This document shows positions 1 to 2,287 of a stretch of DNA of 45,745 nucleotides, piece after piece (the first letter of the stretch is position 1; each line of letters starts with the position of its first letter). This stretch comes from Candidatus Adlerbacteria bacterium (GTDB taxonomy: Bacteria; Patescibacteriota; Minisyncoccia; Phycocordibacterales; SBAW01), in NCBI GenBank assembly GCA_003135635.1, contig PLCJ01000001.1, positions 216,623 through 262,367 on the forward strand. Reading direction: 5' to 3'. Under the pieces are notes generated by a model, which worked only from the letters and a program-made list of their open reading frames with translations, was not told the DNA's origin and searched no databases. A program made the translations under genes and the position numbers.

Positions 1-55
1 ACAGGGAGTAAGTCGTAACAAGGCACGGGTAGCGGAAGCTGTTCGTGGAACAATT
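1..55 (+). rRNA. 16S rRNA 3' end (partial; gene begins before window)
   Basis: AAGTCGTAACAAGG is the conserved 3' 16S motif. It is followed by a helix-45 equivalent ACGGGTAGC-GGAA-GCTGTTCGT (25-46). The exact mature 3' end is unknown. Confidence 0.9.
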
Positions 56-292
56 CAAATTAAAGCTGTTCTGCCCCTCGTACGAGGGCGGGACTGAATG
101 GCGATGTTTCGCGTTTCGCGCGAAATGGATGATGGCACTACATCCCATAGATGTGCTCGCTTTGGCCGATACGCGTTCGGCTCTCGTTGATTGCCTAAAA
201 CTTCACAGAGTACGAAGTCTCAACAATTACGAACGGAACAAGAGAAAGGTGTGTTTCTATAAAATCAATTTTCTGCTACGATACTTTACTGC

Positions 293-366
293 GCGAGCGT
301 AGCTCAGTTTGGTAGAGCATCCGACTGATACTCGGGAGGTCCCAGGTTCGATCCCTGGCGCTCGCA
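293..366 (+). tRNA. tRNA-Ile(GAT)
   Basis: Acceptor GCGAGCG/CGCTCGC, D arm GCTC...GAGC, anticodon loop CTGATAC, T arm CCAGGTTCGATCCCTGG. CCA is not encoded. Confidence 0.95.
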
Positions 367-406
367 CTGGATTTTTCTCCTATTTCACGTAGCATGCCAA
401 AAGTAT

Positions 407-488
407 GGGCATGTGGCGGAATTGGTATACGCGTACGCCTCAGAAGCGTATGGAGCAATCCTTGGGAGTTCGAGTCTCCCCATGCCCA
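407..488 (+). tRNA. tRNA-Leu(CAG)
   Basis: Acceptor GGGCATG/CATGCCC, anticodon loop CTCAGAA, long variable arm, T arm GGGAGTTCGAGTCTCCC. CCA is not encoded. Confidence 0.95.
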
Positions 489-541
489 CAAAATATTTCT
501 ACAATATTGGAATTAAGGGCTGGAAATGATACCGTGATGAT

Positions 542-1657: not shown

Positions 1658-2287
1658 ATGACGTTCCTTCAAAAAGTAGAAGACGCGAAAAAGCTTCTAA
1701 CATGGGCAATAGCAGAGTATCCAAAAATTTGCGTCGGTTGCTCCTTCGGTAAAGATTCAATGGTAACGCTTCATTTAGTCATGAGTGTTAAAAAAGATAT
1801 ACCCGTTATATCCATACTCGCTGAAACGGAGTTTAAAGAGACGTATGAATTTGCTGAGAAGATGAAAAAAGAGTGGAATATCAACTTAACGACGCATCTT
1901 TTTAAACAAGTGGGAAAGGGAGAAAATTGCTGTGGGAAACCTAAGGTGGAGATGACAAAAGAAGCCCTAAAGCCTTATGACGCGTGGATTTCAGGAGTTA
2001 GAAAAACCGAAGGAATTACACGGGCGGACTTCGAGCCTGTAGAAACAAAAAACGGTCTCACAAAAATCAATCCAATTCTAGAATTCACCGAATTAGACAT
2101 CTGGCGGTATACGGCGCTCAATGGCATCCCGGTGAATCCAAAATACAAAGAAGGATATAGAAGTCTAGGATGCGCACAGTGTTCATTTCCTGAAGAAAGT
2201 GAAAGCGAGTCAGAGCGTGCAGGTAGGTGGAAAGGAACAGCAAAAGTGTGTGGAGAATGTGGTATACACACACAACCCTTACGCTAA
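1658..2287 (+). CDS. phosphoadenosine phosphosulfate reductase family (CysH-like)
   Basis: ICVGCSFGKDSMVTLHL PP-loop motif and the C-terminal ERAGRWKGTAKVCGECGIH signature. Confidence 0.85.
   Translation: MTFLQKVEDAKKLLTWAIAEYPKICVGCSFGKDSMVTLHLVMSVKKDIPVISILAETEFKETYEFAEKMKKEWNINLTTHLFKQVGKGENCCGKPKVEMTKEALKPYDAWISGVRKTEGITRADFEPVETKNGLTKINPILEFTELDIWRYTALNGIPVNPKYKEGYRSLGCAQCSFPEESESESERAGRWKGTAKVCGECGIHTQPLR

Follow-up and report, generated by a model that had tools for sequence, protein, structure and literature searches.

The anti-Shine-Dalgarno (anti-SD, aSD) sequence at the 3' end of 16S rRNA, by which the ribosome recognises mRNA start sites, is treated as near-universal in bacteria and taken for granted by gene finders, in 16S annotation and in models of bacterial initiation. 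It is absent across an order of ultra-small Patescibacteria in Paceibacteria, where a different, conserved tail follows helix 45 (h45); on a 16S tree this absence traces to a single loss. We found it in a window of 45,745 nucleotides, the whole stretch of DNA analysed here (bases 216623-262367 of contig 3 of a 95% complete MAG of 602,608 bases in 3 contigs), and we infer that the genome belongs to an Adlerbacteria-type member of Paceibacteria, phylum Patescibacteria. The original prediction, made from sequence alone, had left open how far the loss extends and whether it had been described before; its extent proved to be an order. The loss in the 16S 3' tail is real in the DNA and the interpretation offered there is supported, the mature 3' end being inferred from DNA.

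Helix 45 and the sequence that follows it

The only 16S rRNA gene found in this genome (G000:C3:215420-216682) was matched by the covariance model RF00177 over model positions 1-1533, at the score given in Table 1, despite two gaps, namely an N run inside the gene that directly precedes the window start and a second gap (NN) in the 16S body; because these N-gaps interrupt the gene, only scaffolding connects its 3' fragment to the body. The elements then run in the order AGTCGTAACAAGG, h45 (CACGGGTAGC-GGAA-GCTGTTCGTG) and the tail GAACAATTCAAAT. The original prediction had described these letters, an h45 paired over 9 bp (6 Watson-Crick, 3 G-U) and the absence of an anti-SD from tail and spacer; all three claims held, and h45 gained one further pair (C24-G47), its arms (24-33/38-47) forming 7 Watson-Crick and 3 G-U pairs. 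Pair 29-42, which is G-U in the window, is G-C or C-G in relatives, a compensatory change that argues for selection on h45, and the h45 feature of RF00177 (GGAA loop, paired stem) is met by this change and by the 10-bp stem. KsgA, the methylase of the h45 loop, is present (200.7 bits). The RF00177 feature of CCUCC in a single-stranded 3' tail is not met: the canonical GATCACCTCC after h45 is swapped for GAACAATTCAA, CCTCC is absent within 90 nt of AAGTCGTAACAAGG, and the predicted duplex with the SD consensus amounts to -1.6 kcal/mol for the new tail vs. -16.1 kcal/mol for the canonical tail.

Table 1. Positions of the 16S 3' end, its elements and the neighbouring genes within the window
Feature	Positions	Strand	Remarks
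3' end of 16S rRNA gene	1..58	+	RF00177 match, 996.6 bits; conserved AGTCGTAACAAGG at 11-23; remainder upstream across N-gap
Helix 45, 10 bp, GGAA loop at 34-37 (KsgA site)	24..47	+	Folds as drawn; z -3.25 for 20-60
Replacement 3' tail GAACAATTCAA instead of GATCACCTCCTTA	48..58	+	Conserved over 48 families; no CCTCC
Spacer hairpin (GTTCTGCCC...GGGCGGGAC), just downstream of tail	68..94	+	Predicted fold
tRNA-Ile (GAT), downstream of 16S	293..367	+	
tRNA-Leu (CAG)	407..489	+	

Taking one tail per family from 48 families, we obtained the consensus GAWYAWTTCAA, which is conserved up to window position 58, the information falling from 1.85 to 0.30 bit at the position after it. Because this sharp edge lies near the normal 16S length, it suggests that the mature rRNA continues to end with the new tail. 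Of the letters of CCTCC, the new tail retains the middle T and C; neither of the first two Cs remains, and an A mostly stands in place of the last one.

Many genus-mates have a hairpin at the place of the spacer hairpin of the window, with a changed stem sequence. Of 142 distinct tails, a set biased toward tails retrieved with the ATTCA pattern, 113 have TGAA, the reverse complement of TTCA, 1-4 nt after TTCA, where shuffled trailers would give 3.1; the window genome has no TGAA after its tail and carries TTAAA there instead (window 48-62), and in the order-wide family list G, T and A occupy three TGAA-related places in 20, 26 and 27 of 48 families. It is possible that the TTCA-TGAA arrangement serves as a maturation or 3'-end processing signal. 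A leader-trailer processing stem around the 16S was rejected as unspecific, its own pairs reaching -15.1 kcal/mol vs. -14.6 kcal/mol for mismatched partners.

A single loss on the 16S tree

Within the order, a pattern left open at the tail matched 121/327 genomes, and 120 of these 121 have no CCTCC; since the pattern ends in a non-G base and MAGs often lack the 16S, the remaining genomes count as unread rather than negative. CCTCC is missing from all 120 genomes of the order whose 3' end is native and readable, which is far beyond chance. The sole CCTCC genome (G149) carries a foreign-looking h45 (GTAGCCGTATCGGAAGGTGCGGC), which we take to be Bacteroidota-like, on a 4-kb contig that is likely contamination. 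Across the class, the ATTCA tail was seen in 14 of 384 genomes, all 14 in the window's order, and the canonical tail in 74 of 384, all but one outside it. In a scan of 381 genomes of the phylum, the matches examined outside the order retain CCTCC with few exceptions; these include, within the same class, f40 (CACTTCTT), f54 (CAATTAAA), f67 (CACTACAT) and f79 (CATTTCTT), beyond this class f205 (TACCGCCT), as well as a single TATCTCC in G869. Among named genomes, a pattern scan placed the tail in at least 119 contigs (Adlerbacteria, Nomurabacteria, Zambryskibacteria, Campbellbacteria and others).

Gap-free full-length 16S genes from the same genus and from three other genera of the family share the 3' ending of the window, the complete chromosomes AWSN01000001.1 and OY282360.1 carry the same type of 16S 3' end, and the gapped 16S body of the window genome (h45 and tail excluded) groups with its own genus at 99/94; because these three lines agree, the doubt raised by scaffolding is removed. 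Of the observations named in advance as able to overturn the loss, those open to a check in assembled DNA failed to appear: only one 16S was found in the genome, not a second normal copy; related genomes agree with the window rather than showing CCTCC after h45; and CCTCC lies within 40 nt in 2/143 tails, both times in the variable spacer, which speaks against a tail displaced downstream, just as the normal distance of the tail from h45 argues that no intron displaces it. A chimera or pseudogene fails at the lineage level, where gap-free relatives and complete chromosomes read alike.

On a 42-row 16S tree built without h45 and tail, 29/29 aSD-less rows of the order stand on one side of a branch (100/100) and require a single change; the loss in the order is one event on this tree. 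On a 57-row tree the aSD-less rows taken together require four changes, of which well-supported branches force at least three, with the provisos that its bootstrap is not settled, that CCGCC was scored as aSD-less and that some rows are partial.

Degenerate or lost aSDs (CTTCT, TTTCT, CTACA, ATTAA) also occur in other families of the class (L307, G063; L308, G159; L309, G118; L310, G086). These families lie on separate branches of the 16S tree and represent parallel erosion; in G159, GGAGG/AGGAG still precedes some starts (8 vs. 0 and 2 in controls). Outside the class, family f205 (L311 = G736, L312 = G902) has CCGCC where CCTCC is expected. GGCGG was rejected as the partner of this tail (0/166 genes in G902, 4-mer set), and GGAGG was not enriched before starts in the same genome (3/166 genes, 4-mer set).

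Signals before start codons and ribosomal factors

Genes were called by a hexamer-based script without SD information, start codons thus being predicted, in samples that spanned 111-245 kb of each genome; a 49-kb stretch of E. coli served as the positive control, and SD-like 4-mers starting at -15..-7 were compared with two upstream control zones. Five genomes of the order gave background (60/752 genes vs. 49 and 54 in control zones), as did the window genome taken singly (19/235 vs. 23 and 24), compared with 65/598 vs. 44 and 36 in four aSD-positive relatives of the class, 44/227 vs. 10 and 10 in two aSD-positive genomes of other classes, and 31/60 vs. 0 and 5 in E. coli. SD use is therefore clear outside the class, weak in aSD-positive class members and at background in the order, where 2/5 sampled genomes have a slight excess (G564, p=0.028; G454, p=0.051). 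Motifs complementary to the new tail were not enriched before starts in the window genome or in four others; TTGAA/TGAAT/GAATT at -20..-3 numbered 10 vs. 14.1 expected in the former, and the other four had no excess.

TATAAT (≤1 mismatch) peaks at -14..-12 of start codons, a peak that is absent in E. coli, and TANNNT at -14..-11 precedes 66/235 genes of the window genome vs. 20 and 10 in control zones; G526 has no significant -10 excess by the TANNNT measure. In a sigma-70 promoter, about 12 nt separate the first base of the -10 hexamer from the site where transcription starts. Because the box stands at -14..-12, we infer that transcription starts at or next to the AUG, a leaderless arrangement, and it is likely that the mRNAs of many genes begin at the start codon, although this is read from DNA with no transcript data. 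The box near the start is also found in aSD-positive G143 and G220, so the leaderless signature probably preceded aSD loss.

IF3 is present, its C-terminal domain scoring 32-53 bits in the order vs. 53-80 bits in aSD-positive relatives; the lower scores hint at relaxed constraint, although general divergence may account for them. Era, which binds GAUCACCUCC (PMC10582724), fell below the cut-off in 45/45 genomes, aSD-positive ones included, in agreement with PMC12641178; because aSD-positive relatives lack Era too, its loss probably came before that of the aSD. The window genome yielded no bS21; loss of this protein was rejected as an explanation, hits being weak or none in both the aSD-less and aSD-positive groups, while S1 gave only partial matches in both groups. 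One complete chromosome of the order (G564, OY282360.1; L204-L213) has 26% GC, low coding density and a 13.9-kb open frame, and KsgA had no match in it; an altered genetic code behind the low coding density was rejected, as reading through any single stop gives no help.

Explanation, precedent and genomic surroundings

We consider a joint explanation likely, in which a single ancestral aSD loss, a new conserved tail and an SD-free, largely leaderless initiation belong together, the mode of initiation being inferred. The aSD would have been lost once in the common ancestor of this Paceibacteria order, and the 3' tail would have turned into a different conserved sequence of about 11 nt. Ribosomes would start without mRNA:16S pairing, largely on leaderless mRNAs, the -10 box 12-14 nt ahead of the start codon letting transcription begin at or next to the AUG, and the remaining genes would rely on unpaired starts or on coupling to the gene upstream. 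The conserved UUCAA would then be kept for another role, the likeliest being maturation of the 3' end or a contact within the 30S subunit. CCUCC was probably under weak selection even before it was lost, since aSD-positive relatives already lack Era and carry leaderless signatures. The analysis demonstrates the changed sequence, how widely it is spread, that it arose once on the 16S tree, the intact h45 with KsgA, and the lack of any excess of SD motifs or tail complements. Against the explanation stand the conserved tail, which is not expected from simple decay and leaves some tail function unexplained, the leaderless starts and mature 3' end, which are inferred from DNA with script-predicted starts, and the slight SD-zone excess in G564 and G454 together with the lack of a significant -10 excess in G526.

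The rival that survives best, and that we nonetheless judge unlikely, holds that the aSD tail was deleted, that the mature 16S ends close to h45 and that ATTCAA is a trailer or processing motif. In its favour, TGAA after TTCA (113/142 distinct tails, 3.1 expected) resembles a processing signal, and TTCAA occurs shortly after CCTCCTTTCT in three aSD-positive relatives; however, the conserved block has the normal tail length and keeps the canonical U11 and C12 before conservation drops, and TTCAA is absent there in 27/30 aSD-positive relatives. Very unlikely, and already largely refuted, is a recoded anti-SD that pairs with a UUGAA-like upstream SD in a natural orthogonal ribosome: conservation over 48 families is what a functional recognition sequence would show, but the TTGAA group is not enriched at -20..-3 (10 vs. 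14.1 expected in the window genome; no excess in the other four genomes), and the seeming enrichment in G600 and G526, obtained when every 5-mer complementary to the tail is counted, takes in ATAAT, which belongs to the -10 box. An assembly chimera, a pseudogene or a second normal 16S missing from the MAG can draw on two N-gaps inside the 16S, one directly before the window, and on 95% completeness, but is all but excluded and refuted at the lineage level by the agreement of the tail across many independent assemblies without gaps and across two complete chromosomes, by an h45 that covaries among relatives, by the one 16S in the genome, and by the sole CCTCC of the order (G149) having an h45 unlike the rest, on a 4-kb contig.

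Going further than the single-loss explanation that we prefer, a bolder reading sees a new kind of bacterial 16S 3' end, in which a conserved UUCAA replaced CCUCC on one occasion and is selected for a function of its own (maturation of the 3' end or a 30S contact), SD-type initiation was lost lineage-wide and leaderless initiation became the main mode; we lean slightly against it. Were it true, the parallel erosion in related families of the class would make the stepwise loss of a near-universal element traceable.

Joint loss of aSD and SD is already known (Bacteroidetes, haemotropic Mycoplasma, insect symbionts; PMC3522020, PMC6107228). Lim, Furuta and Kobayashi 2012 (PMC3522020) reported non-anti-SD in 15/1,182 genomes, from Proteobacteria (3), Flavobacteria (9) and haemotropic Mycoplasma (3), in which, as here, no 16S copy has CCTCC and the SD-like sequences have gone along with it. 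The non-anti-SD criterion of no 16S copy with CCTCC is met here (one 16S in the 95%-complete window genome, 120 genomes of the order alike), as is that of no SD-like sequences before genes, with two genomes in slight excess. Unlike the order described here, the 2012 set consists mostly of insect symbionts and eukaryote parasites, with no Patescibacteria and no order-wide loss. A 2018 re-annotation of 16S 3' ends (PMC6107228) listed 128 organisms without CCUCCU and likewise found that no variant SD matched any variant aSD and that SD is absent where the aSD is; its cases are concentrated in Bacteroidetes, Tenericutes and Proteobacteria, and its text contains neither the word Parcubacteria nor the word candidate. 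Flavobacterium-type SD-less initiation (PMC6847099) also involves genes without SD, but its ribosome retains the aSD that is gone here. The CPR ribosome biogenesis survey of Amikura et al. 2025 (PMC12641178), on the same phylum and class, has most Paceibacteria without era, as we do, but notes only that the 16S 3' terminus is often not fully annotated, and Dalgarno and anti-SD are absent from its text; aSD loss may explain this frequent incomplete annotation in the phylum.

No prior report of aSD loss in Patescibacteria, Parcubacteria or CPR turned up in the literature searched, which did not cover Nikolaeva et al. 2021. That work (Nikolaeva, Gelfand and Garushyants 2021) reportedly deals with loss of the aSD in genomes smaller than 1 Mb, and because it may include members of this group, priority is not certain. 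Compared with the known losses, what differs here is one deep loss across an order, a substitute tail that is itself conserved, promoters of the leaderless type, and further losses in parallel close by. A loss by single descent, parallel losses and low-SD aSD-positive relatives together allow tests of why the aSD is kept and of the order of loss; start prediction and expression design that rely on the SD are expected to fail in these organisms.

No 23S rRNA adjoining the 16S was detected by Rfam, and only two tRNAs follow downstream in 45 kb (window 1-45745 and L002 1-4400 searched); we infer from this search that the rRNA genes appear unlinked in the window genome. A GC-rich element with a closing stem lies 0.3 kb upstream of the 16S (L002 3958-4082) and looked 5S-like by eye; a 5S rRNA at this place was rejected for want of Rfam support even at E 10. 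Window positions 1658-2287 hold an open frame that resembles, by eye only, a PAPS-reductase-type protein (CSFGKDSMVTLHL), in what is a very reduced genome.
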